Assembly (NCBI GenBank): GCA_903821495.1
Contig: CAIJLM010000177.1
Location: 1 to 35,111 of the forward strand
From: an uncultured Chthonomonas sp.
Lineage (GTDB): Bacteria; Armatimonadota; Chthonomonadetes; Chthonomonadales; Chthonomonadaceae
DNA length: 35,111 bases
Direction of reading: 5' to 3'
Shown here one piece after another: positions 3,230-31,670 of this stretch. Under the pieces are notes generated by a model, which saw only the letters and a list, made by a program, of their open reading frames with translations, did no database searches and had not been told where the DNA came from. Position numbers and translations under genes: made by a program. Positions within the stretch are counted from its first letter, which is position 1. Every line of letters starts with the position of its first letter.

Positions 3230-3394
3230 CCTAACCCCCGTCCCCTTCCCGAAGCGGGAAGGGGTGGCTCCGACTGAGTTGGAGCGACGCTACCTAGGCG
3301 TTGCCGTTAGGTTCAAAAGCATATTGTTGAACCGCCTTTCTATCGCATTAGCGGCACGAGTTCCCCCTTCCCGCATCGGGAAGGGGGCTAGGTC
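3230..3394. repeat. Left copy of composite REP-like direct repeat
   Basis: A 62 bp block (3230-3291) holds the palindrome CCCCTTCCCGaaGCGGGAAGGGG and ends GACGCT. A spacer and a second palindromic block (about 3327-3394) follow, the latter ending GGGAAGGGGGCTAGGTC. The same two blocks recur in the same order at 3756-3927. The 62 bp blocks are equally long and differ at 8 positions. Six of these lie in the palindrome, where the arms keep pairing. The DUF559 start codon follows this repeat directly. Confidence 0.85.
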
Positions 3395-3760
3395 ATGAAA
3401 GTCAAAAACATCATCTTGGGGCAGAAGGTCGCCGAGGCTAAAGTCATACTCGCCAAGCAGTTCCGAAGCGAAATGACTCCTGCAGAGGCGATACTCTGGA
3501 AGCGTCTGCGAGGTAGCCAAATCGCAGGGATGCACTTCCGCCGTCAGCAGATAATCGCAGGGTTTATCGCCGATTTCTACTGCCATGAGGTCGCTTTAGT
3601 TGTCGAACTAGATGGCGATACACACGAAAGCATTGCAGATGCGGAGCGCGATGCAGTATTTACGGGAAAAGGAATCCGCACCTTGCGCTTCTCTAACGCA
3701 GAGGTGTATCGCGATTTACCCGACGTTCTCAAGCGTATTCAAGAGGCTTTGACAACCTAA
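3395..3760 (+). CDS. DUF559 endonuclease-fold protein
   Basis: This is a 121-residue protein of the DUF559 family, which has a Vsr/restriction-endonuclease-like fold. It shows the family order: an N-terminal helix with MTPAEAILWKRLR, then the core FRRQQIIAGFIADFYC, then the acidic strand LVVELDGDTH, then the RTLRFSNAEVYRDL segment. Its length is normal for the family. The ATG begins directly after a repeat whose GGGAAGGGGG arm lies 7 bases upstream and can act as the Shine-Dalgarno sequence. The stop codon lies inside the next repeat copy. It sits between the two partner genes of the PSD1/DUF1501 pair, which suggests insertion. Function is unproven: DUF559 proteins are assumed to be nucleases, but no substrate is established. 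Confidence 0.88.
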   Translation: MKVKNIILGQKVAEAKVILAKQFRSEMTPAEAILWKRLRGSQIAGMHFRRQQIIAGFIADFYCHEVALVVELDGDTHESIADAERDAVFTGKGIRTLRFSNAEVYRDLPDVLKRIQEALTT

Positions 3761-3927
3761 CCCCCGTCCCCTATCCCTAAAGGGAAGGGGTGGCTCCGAC
3801 TGAGTTGGAATGACGCTTTGTCAGGTCTACCACGAGGTGAAATGCCTACCATTCAACCGTCCCGCTATCTCATTAGCGGCAGGCGTTCCCCCTTCCCGTT
3901 TCGGGAAGGGGGTTAGGGGGTTAGGTC
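3756..3927. repeat. Right copy of composite REP-like direct repeat
   Basis: This is the second copy of the 3230-3394 unit. The 62 bp block at 3756-3817 begins CCTAACCCCCGTCCCCT and ends GACGCT like the left copy. It is followed by the block at 3845-3927 that contains CTATCTCATTAGCGGCA and the GGGAAGGGGGTTAGG arm. The DUF559 stop codon (3758-3760) is inside its first bases. Confidence 0.85.
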
Positions 3928-3944
3928 GCCGTCAGGCGAAAAAC

Positions 3945-4035
3945 CTACCATTCAACCGTCCCGCTATCTCAATAGCGGCAGTGGTTCCCCCTTCCCGTTT
4001 CGGGAAGGGGGGTTAGGGGGCTAGGGGGCTAGGTC
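3945..4035. repeat. Third copy of the second REP-like block
   Basis: This block repeats 3845-3927 in tandem. It starts CTACCATTCAACCGTCCCGC, carries CTATCTCAATAGCGGCA and the CCCCCTTCCCGtttCGGGAAGGGGG palindrome, and ends CTAGGTC. The short open frame seen across 3810-4016 is only a translation of these repeats. The DUF1501 gene starts 27 bases later. Confidence 0.8.
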
Positions 4036-4061
4036 GAAATATCATGGAAAAGGTGAACACT

Positions 4062-5552
4062 ATGGACGAGTTCAATCCGCTCTCTCTCACACGCCGACAT
4101 TTTCTCTCCGGCTCCGCGCTCGGACTAGGCGCGATGGGACTGTCTAGCCTGATGGATGGCTCCGCCTCCGCAAGCGCGGCGAAAGACCAGCGTTTCGGAG
4201 GGCTGGCGGGCGTTCCGCACTATGCGCCGAAAGCGAAGCGCGTCATCTACCTCTGCCAGAGCGGAGGTCCCGCGCACCAAGACCTCTACGACTACAAGCC
4301 CCTGCTGAATGAAAAGCACGGCGAACAGCTCCCCGAATTCGTGCGGGGCGGTCAGCGACTGACGGGTATGAGCGCGAATCAGGCGAGTCTTCCGCTTGCA
4401 GGCTCCGCCTTCAAGTTCGCGCAACACGGCAAGGGCGGTATCTGGTTGAGCGAGGTCATCCCGCATATCGCCAAAATCGCCGATGAGATGTGCGTCGTCA
4501 AATCGCTATGGACGGAGGCGATAAACCACGACCCCGCGATAACCTTCATACAGACGGGTTCGCAGATAGCGGGACGACCTTCGATGGGTTCGTGGGCGAG
4601 TTACGGGCTTGGCTCAATGAACGAGAATCTGCCCGCCTTCGTCGTTTTGGTGACGGCGGGGCAGGGCGACCAACCCCTCTACTCGCGCCTGTGGGGAAGC
4701 GGTTTCCTCGATTCACGGTTTCAAGGGGTGCAGTTCCGCGCCGGTAAGGAGCCTGTTCTCTATCTCGCGAACCCCGGCGGAATCTCCGCGCAGTCGCGCC
4801 GCTCACTGCTGAATACGCTCGGCGCGTTGAACAAACTGCAAGAGGATAAAGAACTCGACCCAGAGATTGAGGCGCGTATGGCGCAGTACGAGATGGCGTA
4901 CCGTATGCAGACGAGCGTACCGGAGGCGACGGACGTTTCCAAAGAGCCGGAAGCGACCTTCGCAATGTACGGAGAGGACGCTCGAAAGCCGGGAACCTTC
5001 GCCGCGAACTGCCTTCTAGCGCGGCGGCTTGCAGAGCGCGGAGTGCGCTTTATTCAACTCTATCATCAGGGATGGGATCATCACGGCGGACTGCCGGGCG
5101 CGATGCGCTATCAGGCGCGACTGACCGACCAAGCGAGCGCGGCGCTAGTGACTGACCTGAAACAGCGGGGGATGCTAGACGATACGCTGGTGATTTGGGG
5201 CGGAGAGTTCGGGCGCACGAGCTACTCGCAGGGCAAATTGACGCGGGACGACTACGGGCGCGACCACCACCCGCGCTGTTTCTCGATGTGGATGGCGGGC
5301 GGAGGCGTGAAGGCGGGCTTCTCCTACGGGCAGACGGACGCTTACGGCTACAACGTCGCAGATAAGGACGGCAACGCCCTCAACCCCTCGAAAGATGTCT
5401 TCACGCCGGGCGTTGTTCACGTTCACGACCTGCAAGCCACGATAATGCGGCTACTCGGCGTTGACCACCTACGCCTCACCTACCGCACACAGGGGCGAGA
5501 CTTCCGAATTACAGACGTGCATGGTCATATCGTCAAGGATATTCTGGCGTAG
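4062..5552 (+). CDS. DUF1501 family protein, Tat-exported
   Basis: This is a 496-residue DUF1501 protein, which has an alkaline-phosphatase/sulfatase-like fold. It starts with a twin-arginine signal: LTRRHFLSGSALGLGAMG, ending near ASASAA. Family signatures follow: VIYLCQSGGPAHQDLYDYKP, the SLWTEAINHDPA and QTGSQIAGRPSMGSW region, LYHQGWDHHGG, VIWGGEFGRT and GRDHHPRCFSMWMAGGGVK. The histidine and aspartate residues in these motifs are the probable metal ligands. It is the usual partner of PSD1 proteins, here separated from its partner by the repeat-flanked DUF559 gene. An in-frame ATG at 4044 would add six residues; AAAGGTG six bases before 4062 favours the later start. Substrate is unknown. 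Confidence 0.93.
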   Translation: MDEFNPLSLTRRHFLSGSALGLGAMGLSSLMDGSASASAAKDQRFGGLAGVPHYAPKAKRVIYLCQSGGPAHQDLYDYKPLLNEKHGEQLPEFVRGGQRLTGMSANQASLPLAGSAFKFAQHGKGGIWLSEVIPHIAKIADEMCVVKSLWTEAINHDPAITFIQTGSQIAGRPSMGSWASYGLGSMNENLPAFVVLVTAGQGDQPLYSRLWGSGFLDSRFQGVQFRAGKEPVLYLANPGGISAQSRRSLLNTLGALNKLQEDKELDPEIEARMAQYEMAYRMQTSVPEATDVSKEPEATFAMYGEDARKPGTFAANCLLARRLAERGVRFIQLYHQGWDHHGGLPGAMRYQARLTDQASAALVTDLKQRGMLDDTLVIWGGEFGRTSYSQGKLTRDDYGRDHHPRCFSMWMAGGGVKAGFSYGQTDAYGYNVADKDGNALNPSKDVFTPGVVHVHDLQATIMRLLGVDHLRLTYRTQGRDFRITDVHGHIVKDILA

Positions 5553-27246: not shown

Positions 27247-28188
27247 ATGGCACGTCTAAGCATGATTGACGCTACCACCCGAAAATTAAATAGGAGAAGC
27301 CGCGCCGCGCTCTCTGCCCTTACGCTACTACTCTTTACAGGAGTGGCGGGAGGCGCTATGGGGCAAGCCCCCCGACTTCCCAAAATAGGGGAGCCGTTAA
27401 GCGGGCGGCGGCTCGACTCAAGTAAGGTGTTGCCGTTCGTTCCTTGGACGCGCAAGGGTATGCCTCCCGGAGCCTACCTCGCCTCGCCAGCCGTTTCCAA
27501 AACAGACCTGAAAAACCAGTTAGAAAATAACCCCGAGCTGATGAAGAAGTACCTCCGCGTATTTCGGGGCAACACTCCTAGAGAGATAAGAAGCTACTTA
27601 GGCTCCCTTGAACTGATAAAACTGGAACGAGACACGCCTTTCAATGTCTACTACTGGCATAAGGACGGCGAAGGCTATAGAGCGCGGATGGTCAAAAAGG
27701 GAACCTACGTCTTTGTGGACGGTCAGGGCAAGCCTATTCTGGTTCAGGTATGTGGAAACCCGCTTCGCAATATCTTAGGGTTGCCTGAGCCGCTGAAAGG
27801 CGCTCAAAACACCTCTAGTATTCAAGAGTTTCTGGAAGATGAACCTCTGCCCCCCAGACGCACCGTCGTTCTGGACGAAATGCAGATGTTCGATATGGGT
27901 TCCATCCAACTGGTTGCGCCGAAAGCGCGTAACATTGACGTGGACATTCTTCCCAAGCCTAGCATAGGGCGCTTCGCCGCCGTAACGCCTGTGGTTCCGC
28001 CGATAACGCCGCCTGTTATTCCTAGCGTTGTCCCGCCGACGATACCGCCGCTGATTCCGCCTATCATTCGGCACGACCCGATACCGAACATCCCTGAGCC
28101 GGGAACAGTGACGCTCCTACTCACATCGTTGAGTTCAGGAATCGCGATTGGCGGTTCCGCCCTACGACGGCGTAAGCGACGTAAGTAG
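27247..28188 (+). CDS. PEP-CTERM sorted exported protein
   Basis: This 313-residue protein has a signal peptide (hydrophobic core about 20-35, ending AMGQA). Its C-terminal PEP-CTERM sorting signal has the parts PEPGT, a hydrophobic stretch (LLLTSLSSGIAIGG) and a basic tail RRRKRRK. A low-complexity spacer of P-P-(I/V) repeats (VPPITPPVIPSVVPP and following) precedes it at about residues 257-280. The middle shows no family I know. Such proteins are cut by exosortase and delivered to the envelope or an extracellular matrix. GGAG lies only two bases before the first ATG, so the in-frame ATG at 27262 is an alternative. Confidence 0.82.
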   Translation: MARLSMIDATTRKLNRRSRAALSALTLLLFTGVAGGAMGQAPRLPKIGEPLSGRRLDSSKVLPFVPWTRKGMPPGAYLASPAVSKTDLKNQLENNPELMKKYLRVFRGNTPREIRSYLGSLELIKLERDTPFNVYYWHKDGEGYRARMVKKGTYVFVDGQGKPILVQVCGNPLRNILGLPEPLKGAQNTSSIQEFLEDEPLPPRRTVVLDEMQMFDMGSIQLVAPKARNIDVDILPKPSIGRFAAVTPVVPPITPPVIPSVVPPTIPPLIPPIIRHDPIPNIPEPGTVTLLLTSLSSGIAIGGSALRRRKRRK

Positions 28189-28275: not shown

Positions 28276-28821
28276 CTAATGGCGGCGGCAGGAGTGCAAC
28301 GCCTTCCAAGCATGGTTCCATGCCTGTTCAGAGTAACCTATAATCCCAAAGTAGTCGGAAGAGCCATAAGCCGAAAAAGCGTTTTCCCAAGCCGTTTCCG
28401 CAAGCGCCACCTCGTTAGGGTCTGCATTCACGTCGTTCTCAGCGTCTTGAACCAGCGTTCCAGAAACGCCTAGGTCGCCCTGAGTGATGTCGCCGATAGC
28501 GTCGTTGATAACAGTGCGGTCTCCAGCGTCTACCTTGACCAGCTCCTTTACGGCTTTTACGTCGATATCGAAGACTCTCTTGCCGCCCTCAGCAGTCAGG
28601 TGCGTGTCATCAATCCAGTAATCGTCCTCTATCTCATCGCTGATTCGGGAGATGGCTTTTTTGATGTGGTTCGTGTCGCTTTTCGCCCATGTGTAGGAGG
28701 TCAGGGCATCGGTTAGTAGCGAAGTAGCATCCTGCTTGTAAGAGCGACATCCCGTGAGCATGAGCGCCAAAAGCGATGCGCCCGTAATGAGTAGATTGCG
28801 TTGGTGAAAGAGTCTCTTCAT
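28276..28821 (-). CDS. Lipoprotein of unknown function
   Basis: This 181-residue protein starts MKRLFHQRNLLITGASLLAL and has lipobox LTGC (C25). The mature part is acidic and probably mostly helical, with SLLTDALTSYTWAKSDTNHI and VALAETAWENAFSAYG. No domain is recognised. The open frame extends to 28896, but AGGAG eight bases before the ATG at 28821 and the signal sequence fix the start. It converges on the PEP-CTERM gene and shares its terminator. Confidence 0.75.
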   Translation of the reverse strand: MKRLFHQRNLLITGASLLALMLTGCRSYKQDATSLLTDALTSYTWAKSDTNHIKKAISRISDEIEDDYWIDDTHLTAEGGKRVFDIDVKAVKELVKVDAGDRTVINDAIGDITQGDLGVSGTLVQDAENDVNADPNEVALAETAWENAFSAYGSSDYFGIIGYSEQAWNHAWKALHSCRRH

Positions 28822-28896
28822 CAAAACTTCTCCTTGCCTGTGAGCTGGGATTGAATTCATTGGAAATCCCCGTAAAAGTACGCGATTCCTAAACAA

Positions 28897-29121
28897 AGTA
28901 TATCATAAACGCCGCCTACATTTCGCCTCGCCCTCAAAATAATAACTCCGGTTGCAGAGTTGTCTTTTTACGTTCCACGCCCCTTTTCGCCGATTTTGAG
29001 GAGAGTAGTAGGTATGGACATCCGCTTACAAAGGCGGAACCCAAAAAAGTCTGCGAATCTAGCGCTTTGCACAGTGACCTCTTCGCTGTAATTTGGCATA
29101 ACTACTATGTAGGTTCTTTCC
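28897..29121 (+). other. Intergenic region upstream of the riboswitches
   Basis: No gene is seen. It should contain the minus-strand promoter of the lipoprotein gene and the plus-strand promoter of the riboswitch transcript. A weak plus-strand candidate is TTGCAC, 16 bases, then TAATTT near 29068-29095. A small hairpin AACTC/GAGTT followed by TCTTTTT lies near 28945-28970. Confidence 0.35.
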
Positions 29122-29213
29122 CGCCCCCGATAAAGGGCAAACCAACCGCAAGGTTGGGACGCAAAGCGCACGGGTCTCGGCTTATTCTCTGAGATGGCCG
29201 CGCCGCCGAAAGG
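29122..29213 (+). ncRNA. Cyclic-di-GMP-I (GEMM-I) riboswitch, upstream copy
   Basis: The aptamer core matches the GEMM-I consensus. GGGCAAACC leads into a perfect stem CCAACC-GCAA-GGTTGG capped by a GNRA tetraloop, then GGGACGCAAAGC, then the second arm with CGGGTCT and GGCCGCGCCGAAA. A closing stem CGCCC (29122-29126) / GGGCG (29209-29213) fits P1. It is the first of two copies on the transcript of the subtilase gene. The 3' half of the second arm is less canonical than in the downstream copy. Confidence 0.88.
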
Positions 29214-29351
29214 GCGACAAAAGCGAAGAAACTTCTCTCTCTTTGGGAGATTTCTCCGGCTACTTCCTCGTCGGGCAGGTAAGGACAGATTAAATAACGT
29301 AGCCTTCTTGTTTCTAATGAGTAGGCTCGTTTCGTCACCATTCACATCCTT

Positions 29352-29446
29352 CGCAAGCGAAATGGCAAACCGCGCCGAAAGGACGGGACGCAAAGCCACG
29401 GGTCTAATGCGGTCATCGCAAAGACAGCCGGGCTACCGAAATTGCG
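29352..29446 (+). ncRNA. Cyclic-di-GMP-I (GEMM-I) riboswitch, downstream copy
   Basis: This is a canonical GEMM-I aptamer. GGCAAACC is followed by a GAAA-capped arm, GGGACGCAAAGCCACGGGTC, a variable hairpin, and AGCCGGGCTACCGAA. The ends CGCAA (29352-29356) and TTGCG (29442-29446) can pair as P1. Its 3' end is only 24 bases from the subtilase start, and GAGGGAG follows directly, so ligand binding could change access to the ribosome site. It begins about 140 bases after the first copy ends. Confidence 0.94.
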
Positions 29447-29470
29447 CTACAACGAGGGAGTCTTCAAATC

Positions 29471-31273
29471 ATGTTTCCACTAAGCGCCCGCAGGCGCAAT
29501 AACACGCCCGCAGACGACAAGCGCCCGATAGCGCCCCGCCGCTATGGGATTTTCCAGCGGGCTATGCAAGCCGTTACGCTTGCCTTCGTTTTGGGGGCGG
29601 CTCTACACGCTCTCCCCGTTGAAGCCAGCGAACTGTCTGGCAAAGCAGATAGTCTCCTAACAAAGAGAGCCTCTCAGAGGCTGAAAGTTGGCTCTACTGG
29701 GGTCATTGTCAGAATTAGCGTAGCTCTGACGGCGCAACGCGAAGCCGAACTGCGGAGCCTCGGTTGTCAGATATACCGCCGACTTCCGATAATCAAATCT
29801 GTCGCTCTGACTGCGCCAAACCGTAGCCTAAACCGCTTGGCGGCGCTACCCTACGTACAGCGACTCTCCGCAGACCTGATAGTAAGAAAGACCGATGCAT
29901 TCACCGATACGCACAGCATGGCTTCCAACGCATGGGCGTTGTATCCTAAGCTCGACCCGACACACGTACTCGTTGGCGTTGTAGATAGCGGAATCAACAA
30001 AGTCAATGACGTGCAGAACGTTGTAAAGTCGCTCTCCTTTATCGCGAACAACGCGAACTTGGGAGATGAGTGCGGGCATGGAACCCACGTCGCGGGCATT
30101 ATCAGCGGTTCGGGAGCCTCCTCTACAGGAACGGGCTTCACGCCCATTCGAGGAGTAGGGTACAACGCCTCTAGCCTCAAAGCCCCTCTTCTTGCCAGCC
30201 TCAAGGCGTTGGGAGCCGATGGAACGGGCAGAGTCAGCGATGTAGTCGCCGCAATGCAGTGGCTCCTTCTGGTTGCGAAACACGATAAGTCTGCCGGAGT
30301 GACGCTACCACCCGATGTGCGGGTCGTGTTGAACCTCTCTATTGGTCATCCCGTCGCGGAAAGCTACACAACAGACCCTCTCTGTCAAGCGTGCGAAGCG
30401 CTATGGCAAGCGGGCGCGGTTGTGGTCTGCTCGGCGGGTAACGATGGTCGCCTTCAAGATACGGTAGACCCGACTCTCGACAATGAAGGGTACGGAACCT
30501 CCTACGGAACTATCAACTCTCCCGGCAACGACCCCTACGTAATTACCGTAGGCGCAGTGAAGAATATGGACGGAAATCGGGCGGACGATAGGCTTTCGAC
30601 CTACTCTAGCCGAGGTCCTACGCGCCTTGACTTGGTATTGAAGCCGGATATCATTGCGCCCGGCAATAAAGTAGTCTCCGTAGACGCTGGCATTAACAGC
30701 GCGTCGAAGCTCTATAGTTGGCTACGAGGAGCCTATCCGGGCAACCTTGTTCCGCAGAGCGAATACTATAGCGGGACGAAAACGCTAACGCCCGCATACT
30801 ACAAGTTGTCCGGAACCTCTATGGCGGCTCCTGTTGTCTCGGCGGCGGTAGCGATGATGTTGGCGCAAAACATGACGCTAACGCCAGACACTATCAAGGC
30901 GCGACTGATGCTGACCGCCGATAAGTGGAACCTGCCGAATGGCTCCGCCGCCCCCTGCTCTTTGGGCGCGGGGTACGTGAATGTCCTTGCGGCGATGAGT
31001 AGCTCCGTTGTCGCTACGCAGAGCGCTCTCTCTCCCAATATGGTGCAAGACGCGCAGGGCAGTGTCTATATCTCCATAGACAGAGCGATATGGGGAACAG
31101 GCGTAACCGACCTGCGTGCGATATGGGGAACCAAAGCGATTTGGGGAACCACCACAAACCTTCTCTCCGCTAGCAAGGCTATCTGGGGAACGGGTGTTTG
31201 GAGCGATAGAGCCGTGTGGGGAGTCGACATCTTCGGCGCAGACTTTTCAAAGGCGGTCATTGGCGGAGAGTAG
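29471..31273 (+). CDS. Secreted subtilisin-like protease (S8) with IWG-repeat tail
   Basis: This 600-residue serine protease has a long basic N-region with one hydrophobic segment (about 34-50). An inhibitor I9-like propeptide (about 75-140) is followed by the subtilase domain. The triad is D172 (GVVDSGIN), H203 (GHGTHVAGIISG) and S450 (SGTSMAAP), with oxyanion N324 (AGNDG). The domain ends near residue 520. The tail (about 535-600) holds five short repeats of the form (D/K)(R/K)AIWGT: RAIWGTG, RAIWGTK, KAIWGTT, KAIWGTG and RAVWGVD. The function of the tail is unknown; it could bind cell surface or self-associate. Expression is preceded by two cyclic-di-GMP riboswitches. GAGGGAG lies 10 bases upstream of the ATG. 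Confidence 0.93.
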   Translation: MFPLSARRRNNTPADDKRPIAPRRYGIFQRAMQAVTLAFVLGAALHALPVEASELSGKADSLLTKRASQRLKVGSTGVIVRISVALTAQREAELRSLGCQIYRRLPIIKSVALTAPNRSLNRLAALPYVQRLSADLIVRKTDAFTDTHSMASNAWALYPKLDPTHVLVGVVDSGINKVNDVQNVVKSLSFIANNANLGDECGHGTHVAGIISGSGASSTGTGFTPIRGVGYNASSLKAPLLASLKALGADGTGRVSDVVAAMQWLLLVAKHDKSAGVTLPPDVRVVLNLSIGHPVAESYTTDPLCQACEALWQAGAVVVCSAGNDGRLQDTVDPTLDNEGYGTSYGTINSPGNDPYVITVGAVKNMDGNRADDRLSTYSSRGPTRLDLVLKPDIIAPGNKVVSVDAGINSASKLYSWLRGAYPGNLVPQSEYYSGTKTLTPAYYKLSGTSMAAPVVSAAVAMMLAQNMTLTPDTIKARLMLTADKWNLPNGSAAPCSLGAGYVNVLAAMSSSVVATQSALSPNMVQDAQGSVYISIDRAIWGTGVTDLRAIWGTKAIWGTTTNLLSASKAIWGTGVWSDRAVWGVDIFGADFSKAVIGGE

Positions 31274-31292
31274 CCAGTGGGGCTCCTGCCTT

Positions 31293-31333
31293 CTCCGCGC
31301 CTTAGAGAGAGGCGTTTTCTCTAAGGCGCGGAG
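31293..31333 (+). other. Long perfect stem-loop between subtilase and mini-protein
   Basis: Arms CTCCGCGCCTTAGAGA (31293-31308) and TCTCTAAGGCGCGGAG (31318-31333) are perfectly complementary over 16 bp with a 9-base loop. CCTG/CAGG flanks can extend it. No T-run follows, so it is not a typical terminator. It could be an RNA stability element or partial attenuator separating expression of the two genes. Confidence 0.8.
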
Positions 31334-31393
31334 ACAGGAATGGCTCTCAGGAAGATAGTTTAAAACAGAGTATTCAACGAAAGGCGATAGGTT

Positions 31394-31627
31394 ATGACAT
31401 CCATAGGGCGCAACAAGGTAGCGAGAGGTTTGCCCCTGCTGGCGACCGCTTGGCTCATCATAGCGTTCGCGTTTTGCGCCAATCCTGCTATTGGCAGGAA
31501 CGAGTTCGCTTCGGGACGTAGTAAGACAAAAGAGGGAACCTTGTGGAAGGGGGGCGTTAGGCGAGCGATACCGGGTAGTCGGGGCGGAGCCTATACTACT
31601 CCGCATCGGGTTATTTGGGGGAACTAA
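31394..31627 (+). CDS. Small secreted protein ending in an IWG motif
   Basis: This 77-residue protein has an N-terminal signal: GRNKVAR, then a hydrophobic core LPLLATAWLIIAFAF (about 13-27), with likely cleavage near CANPAIG. The remaining ~44 residues are basic and glycine/serine-rich and end HRVIWGN. That ending resembles the AIWGT repeats of the protease encoded 120 bases upstream, so this may be a substrate, adaptor or rudimentary copy of the tail. AAAGG lies about nine bases before the ATG. No family is recognised. The shared motif and signal peptide support it as a real gene, but it is short. Confidence 0.6.
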   Translation: MTSIGRNKVARGLPLLATAWLIIAFAFCANPAIGRNEFASGRSKTKEGTLWKGGVRRAIPGSRGGAYTTPHRVIWGN

Positions 31628-31642
31628 CTAGAGGACGATAAA

Positions 31643-31670
31643 GGAGGCGGCGATAACTTTCGCCGCCTCC
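31643..31670. terminator. Hairpin between mini-protein gene and motB
   Basis: Perfect 10-bp arms GGAGGCGGCG and CGCCGCCTCC enclose an 8-base loop, in the 76-base gap between convergent genes. There is no T-run on either side, so it is a probable but weak bidirectional terminator. Confidence 0.6.

Follow-up and report, generated by a model that had tools for sequence, protein, structure and literature searches.

The protease gene, its tail, and the adjoining mini-protein

The region described here lies in a 35,111-nucleotide stretch of DNA (the window) from a 5.37-Mb metagenome-assembled genome of an uncultured Chthonomonas sp. (Armatimonadota). Two c-di-GMP-I riboswitch aptamers in tandem are followed by a subtilase gene, a hairpin, and a small ORF (Table 1). 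The 600-residue subtilase, which ends in ...DRAIWGTGVTDLRAIWGTKAIWGTTTNLLSASKAIWGTGVWSDRAVWGVDIFGADFSKAVIGGE, is laid out as a hydrophobic N terminus, a propeptide-like region, the catalytic domain, and a tail of WG repeats. Its PF00082 match lies above the cutoff, placing it in the S8 (subtilase) family; residues D172, H203, N324, and S450 occupy the expected S8 motifs, and a PDB sequence search led to the subtilisin-like 3afg. Peptidase_S8 was the sole Pfam match for the protease, while NCBIfam returned S8 relatives below threshold only. Two narrower identities were rejected on score, i.e., a T7SS mycosin (TIGR03921; 99.2 bits against a cutoff of 278.75) and an anti-phage subtilase (IetS/IteS; 49.5 bits against 900 in NCBIfam, with the PADLOC IetS models matching partly only). 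The protease is 79% identical to that of an Armatimonadetes MAG (L088, JAPLCR010000310.1).

Table 1 Features of the protease region in the window
Feature	Position	Strand	Evidence
c-di-GMP-I riboswitch aptamer, first of tandem pair	29126..29210	+	Rfam RF01051, 58.9 bits (gathering score, 35)
c-di-GMP-I riboswitch aptamer, second of pair; 3' end 30 nt upstream of the protease's start codon	29354..29440	+	RF01051, 75.9 bits
Subtilase (peptidase family S8)	29471..31273	+	Pfam PF00082, E=2e-37, residues 165-486
C-terminal tail: five [RK]A[IV]WG units plus terminal Trp-less AVIGGE unit	31082..31270	+	Sequence
19-bp hairpin between protease stop and mini-protein ORF	31292..31334	+	RNA folding
Mini-protein ORF, 77 aa, N-terminal hydrophobic segment, C terminus PHRVIWGN	31394..31627	+	ORF; start region and C terminus conserved in G002
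PHRVIWGN codons, one free tail-unit copy at the very C terminus	31601..31624	+	8/8 residues identical to G002, 3 synonymous changes
Hairpin just past mini-protein ORF	31643..31670		Terminator scan; terminator-like with T-run only for the opposite (MotB/MotA) strand

The five [RK]A[IV]WG units with which a first-pass annotation of this DNA had the subtilase end are present in the ORF at positions 31082 to 31225, together with a related VWSD unit. No Pfam or NCBIfam model matches the tail, and AlphaFold2 gave a pLDDT of 35 for the tail alone and of 30 for the protease aligned with one relative, values too low for the models to be of use. In the sister genome G002, at saturated dS, the tail is 86% identical to that of the window, against 87% for the catalytic domain and 59% for the signal/propeptide region, and it has one whole KAIWGT unit more, either by gain there or by loss in the window. 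By this comparison, the tail is under purifying selection and as conserved as the catalytic domain. Given its identity at saturated dS and the gain or loss of a whole unit, it is not the random low-complexity sequence for which the first-pass annotation had left room.

That annotation also took the next gene to encode a 77-residue secreted protein ending in HRVIWGN. The ORF and its end are as described; "secreted" fits the products in three genomes of the genus only. In the two others that carry the protease, an ORF directly downstream likewise has a hydrophobic N terminus and ends in PHRVIWGN (G002) or DYHVLWGV (G001), so that the WG end is conserved in relatives, the identity of the whole mini-protein to that of the window being 32% and 20%, respectively. 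On this evidence the WG end is under purifying selection while the rest is diverging. The pattern HxV[ILV]WGx-stop occurred in only 2 of 61 genomes, each time right after the protease described here. Pfam gave no match in the mini-protein, and a homology search with its 77 residues returned nothing credible outside its own locus because conservation is limited to the end. Hairpins stand in the same place between the two genes in all three genomes of the genus (z scores, -3.7, -4.7, and -2.6), strong in the sisters and differing in sequence, and the hairpin may set the ratio of protease to mini-protein.

Other genes surround the pair. Just upstream of the protease region, positions 27247 to 28188 (+ strand) encode an exported protein that matches DUF6777 and bears a PEP-CTERM-like sorting signal, and positions 28276 to 28896 (- strand) encode a lipoprotein-like protein with no Pfam match whose place next to the protease is conserved across all three genus members. 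A link to the adjoining MotB/MotA genes as a conserved feature was discarded, these genes not lying beside the protease in G002 or G001.

WG-tailed proteases and micropeptides across Armatimonadota

Relatives of the protease, collected at E <= 1e-40, were present in 30 of 291 genomes of the phylum, and the fetched loci held 52 proteases with Trp-unit tails. The units follow a hexapeptide-like consensus, [R/H/S/N/Q][A/V/I][I/L/V/M]W[G/A/S][D/N/T/S/E], with spacing that ranges from irregular (RAIWGT) to perfect hexapeptide tandems. Arrays comprise about 3 to 34 units and differ by whole units, the extreme being a tail with 34 Trp units in nearly perfect SALWGD tandems (G032, locus L087); the units of another tail (G046) are W[A/S]D variants. 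Read by eye, most tails close with a Trp-less unit of the form ...[AVIL]xG[DE]. WG arrays in viral contigs were low-complexity coincidences only, and a plasmid search yielded one ordinary S8 peptidase only.

Outside the window's genus, the equivalents of the mini-protein are micropeptides of 15 to 26 residues without a recognizable signal peptide; those that directly follow a protease have 15 to 22 residues, with Shine-Dalgarno (SD) sites at or beside the protease stop. In G100, the SD sequence of MNLFMRMVRRIIWGE overlaps the protease stop and an intrinsic terminator comes directly after the micro-ORF, as a terminator also does after MKTTSPPKTGMIIRPRIIWGS in G124; the second protease of G100 is followed by MFKALFRILWGDLFGC, read from a TTG start immediately after the TAA stop. 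The peptides of G046 and G032 are MHTDETTCSTAVWVD (SD, AAAGGAG) and MENTANTSSAALVVCFSVLWND (GTG start; SD, AAGGAG). Two more belong to the same cluster and are nonadjacent, i.e., MAPVVTQLMFRIIHIIWGI (G081), which stands by itself with tandem c-di-GMP-I riboswitches on one side and a terminator on the other, and MFSPMPTQFHSKTGISNLRGNVFWGD (G218), which comes after a GGDEF gene located downstream of the protease. The second unit position is usually V or I in the micropeptides versus A in the tail units. The micro-ORFs, usually directly downstream, are apparently coupled translationally to the protease, and they are presumably translated. Because most equivalents of the mini-protein have no signal peptide, the partner of the protease need not be a secreted mini-protein. 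In G081, an IS200/IS605-type pair of TnpA-like and TnpB-like ORFs (L097, positions 3354 to 4901) separates the GGDEF/HD-GYP gene from the WG protease.

The association was quantified in the 420 nt downstream of each protease, on the same strand. With a strict motif that had been set before the final cases came to light, a WG-like ORF end followed 5 of the 52 WG-tailed proteases, compared with a mean of 0.12 (maximum, 1) in dinucleotide shuffles and with none of 52 on the reverse strand. The motif was widened once the G046, G032, and second G100 cases had been spotted by eye, and in this post hoc test it was found in 8 of 52 downstream regions versus 0.1 in shuffles and 0 on the reverse strand. 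The first-pass annotation, which had called for a search for S8 proteases of this kind with small signal-peptide proteins ending in IWG beside them, was thus borne out as to the pairing within Armatimonadota and not, outside the genus, as to the signal peptide. No directly downstream micropeptide was recognizable for the other 44 proteases. Since three of the eight cases come from a single genus and two others share a genome, independent lineages are fewer than cases; five genera are represented (the window's and those of G046, G032, G100, and G124). Across the 291 genomes, the bare motif [R/x]IIWGx-stop was not enriched over a reversed control, and the signal is therefore local to the proteases.

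The peptide ends also track the repeat variant of their own genome (nine peptides, p=5e-5), and when the three cases selected by eye were removed, the true pairing of the six motif-found cases was the best of 720. Residues shared by peptide and tail have identical codons at 1/12 positions in the window genome, 0/6 in G100, and 3/12 in G001; in G081 the figure is 9/15, and a DNA-level copy is possible there. As synonymous codons often differ, the match is at the protein level and not simply a recent DNA copy. The idea of the first-pass annotation that the shared motif denotes a common partner or a functional pair gains from this tracking and from the recurrence in several genera; of a substrate or a sorting tag, its other suggestions, we saw no sign. 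Together, the comparisons provide good support for a putative Armatimonadota module consisting of a WG-tailed S8 protease and a small WG-ending partner.

Association with c-di-GMP signaling

Both aptamers in the window are full length over the covariance model (positions 1 to 87 of 87) and score above the gathering threshold, which makes them members of RF01051. The sister genome G002 also has a tandem pair and G001 has one aptamer; free RNA folding of positions 29105 to 29480 displayed no clear ON or OFF expression platform. The first-pass annotation had overlooked these aptamers, as well as the c-di-GMP enzymes encoded nearby in relatives. By a script with fixed distances, 16 of the 52 proteases were preceded by an aptamer, 11 of them by a tandem. 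Four more cases (L074, L095, L105, and L117), in which the aptamer is inside the stop-to-stop frame or farther upstream of a broken gene, bring the count to about 20 of 52, 13 tandem. A GGDEF/HD-GYP-type gene was found at 17 of 47 loci; with 9 to 19 GGDEF domains per genome, its chance occurrence in a 10-kb neighborhood was estimated, as a rough figure, at about 3%.

In many Armatimonadota genomes, c-di-GMP-I riboswitches precede flgM, which encodes the anti-sigma-28 factor (PF04316 confirmed), and this suggests that c-di-GMP directly controls flagellar gene expression via flgM riboswitches (loci L149, L151, L159, L209, L218, L220, and others). GGDEF genes and pilin-like genes also lie behind such riboswitches. 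Because the riboswitch class is common to all, the protease, flagellar control, and c-di-GMP turnover would come under one signal.

Several further genes were observed downstream of c-di-GMP-I riboswitches. In G037 and G207 (L229 and L216), these encode prepilin-like proteins (GFTLIEVLVA) or others whose ends are similar. In G062 (L211), two paralogous micropeptides of 30 to 31 residues, MRLRFALLALRAAHKMLTFASDMVAGPKAS and MRLRLAMLALKVAHRILTVASHMVESPSAAK, each with a strong SD site, are encoded about 180 to 430 nt after a riboswitch signature. A conserved 62-residue protein, MWTL[YF]DPL...RAPST..RLW.L.EPT.PL.SR, occurs after the riboswitch in G230 (L113/L224) and G231 (L367), in the former between two riboswitches that precede a WG-tailed protease.

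DISCUSSION

The matching of peptide and tail within a genome takes place at the protein level, which implies that one binding constraint governs both the tail units and the micropeptide. Homotypic strand pairing of the units would be the simplest constraint of this kind, with a common third partner nearly as good. We infer, from the sequences compared here, that the protease is probably exported, that c-di-GMP probably controls it, and that tail and micropeptide probably interact physically. The reading that we tentatively prefer, plausible if short of probable, is a c-di-GMP-linked secreted protease with tail units that bind among themselves or to one shared partner and with a micropeptide that serves as a single-unit cap or competitor. 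Its fuller version should be held a little more loosely still, i.e., that of a general c-di-GMP-linked Armatimonadota module in which a riboswitch-controlled secreted protease bears a homotypic Trp-strand array and a translationally coupled micropeptide of 15 to 91 residues, which coevolves with its own genome's repeat variant, offers one free unit that caps or blocks the array.

In such a mechanism, c-di-GMP would set the timing of protease and micropeptide production within the switch between motile and attached life, flgM being under the same riboswitch class. The tail units would then recognize one another as extended strands, or one common partner, a step of which we are less sure than of the c-di-GMP step. 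The micropeptide, with one unit, a free C terminus, and usually V or I in place of A at the second position, would occupy the same site, and this substitution may make the free unit a stronger binder than a tail unit. As cap or competitor, the micropeptide might limit tail assembly or prevent occupation of the tail before the protease has left the cell; in the window's genus, its signal-like N terminus would point to action outside the cell. Other observations count against this explanation. No micropeptide was recognizable directly downstream of 44 of the 52 proteases; micropeptides outside the genus are without a signal peptide, yet the tail is presumably exported; several riboswitch-linked proteases have no micropeptide, just as several micropeptide-linked ones have no riboswitch; and a common receptor is not indicated by any conserved third gene.

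A modest chance attaches to a common third partner, which corresponds to the binding partner or sorting tag of the first-pass annotation, with units and micropeptide binding one surface, secretion, or matrix component, the array providing multivalent attachment and the micropeptide modulating it. Own-tail matching is equally expected when both track one receptor, unit numbers vary as they do in multivalent binders, and a surface-held protease would be consistent with c-di-GMP control; against this, clustering of the neighboring genes yielded no conserved third gene or receptor candidate, GGDEF/HD-GYP being the only widely shared neighbor family. That the micropeptide is instead a cognate inhibitor, its end (and perhaps the tail units) lying in the active-site cleft like a propeptide C terminus so that cell or enzyme is shielded until export, seems unlikely. 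The subtilisin cleft does suit an extended hydrophobic peptide, the coupling to the protease stop is tight, and there is precedent for small inhibitors cotranscribed with a secreted protease, e.g., staphopain/staphostatin, which our loci resemble in that the gene of a small protein adjoins that of a secreted protease. Unlike staphostatin, however, the micropeptides are far shorter, look unfolded, and copy the protease's own tail unit; S8 inhibitors are usually folded domains rather than 15-mers, a propeptide-like region is already present upstream of the catalytic domain, and it would be left unexplained why the protease itself carries as many as 34 units.

Still less probable is an action of the micro-ORF in cis on the mRNA, in translation or termination control, the peptide itself being irrelevant. 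The proximity of terminators and hairpins would fit, as would the G081 micro-ORF placed between riboswitches and terminator, but the conserved part is the peptide end, matching the tail by amino acid and often not by codon, and at most loci the micro-ORF comes last, at the transcript's 3' end, with little left to regulate. We consider it very improbable that the Trp units of tail and micropeptide are sites of enzymatic modification or cross-linking (RiPP-like, e.g., W-x-D/N cyclophanes): many units do contain W-[G/A/S]-[D/N], which we take to resemble cyclophane motifs, and the micropeptides resemble short precursors, but T, V, I, S, or E often fills the third position and no conserved modifying-enzyme family lies near the loci. 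Inhibitor, cis-acting, and RiPP-like roles are possible ones that explain less than the cap-or-competitor reading. Equally slight is the probability that the WG ends are chance products, remnants of repeat arrays or random ORFs. The lack of genome-wide enrichment of the bare motif would agree with chance; the strong local enrichment only beside proteases, the micro-ORFs' own start sites and SD sequences, the purifying selection on the mini-protein end, and the own-tail matching all argue against it.

The nearest working analogue is PPEP-1 (Zmp1, CD2830) of Clostridioides difficile, a secreted metalloprotease under a class I c-di-GMP riboswitch whose adhesin substrates have its cleavage motif in repeats at their C termini (PMC11477304). 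The two systems share a short motif repeated C-terminally and would also share a secreted protease under c-di-GMP-I riboswitch control and a motile-to-sessile context in which the signal acts on flagellar genes too. The present enzyme is, in contrast, an S8 serine protease, and the repeats are in the protease itself, with one unit in the micropeptide, rather than in adhesins; no adhesin partner was recognized, and a PPEP-1-like adhesin-releasing module was accordingly rejected. With S8 subtilases (PF00082) the protease shares the catalytic domain and active-site motifs; its WG-unit tail fits no Pfam or NCBIfam model. Two aptamers in series are likewise a feature of the tandem c-di-GMP-I riboswitches cataloged in PMC9481103 (347 doublets), where the arrangement is suggested to make the response sharper, for lifestyle changes of the all-or-nothing kind; the main text of that paper makes no mention of Armatimonadota, proteases, or peptidases.

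The S8 domain and the riboswitch are already known, while the pair of tail and micropeptide appears to be undescribed: in the open-licence literature searched, we found no papers on Trp hexapeptide subtilase tails, their micropeptide, or Armatimonadota c-di-GMP riboswitches, nor the trio that the module joins, i.e., c-di-GMP riboswitches, a putatively exported protease with its own Trp-motif tail, and micropeptides. Peptides of 15 to 26 residues are normally skipped by genome annotation. The matching of micropeptide and tail within each genome predicts a physical interaction that is directly testable, and the module would provide a handle on the change between swimming and surface life in a poorly studied phylum.
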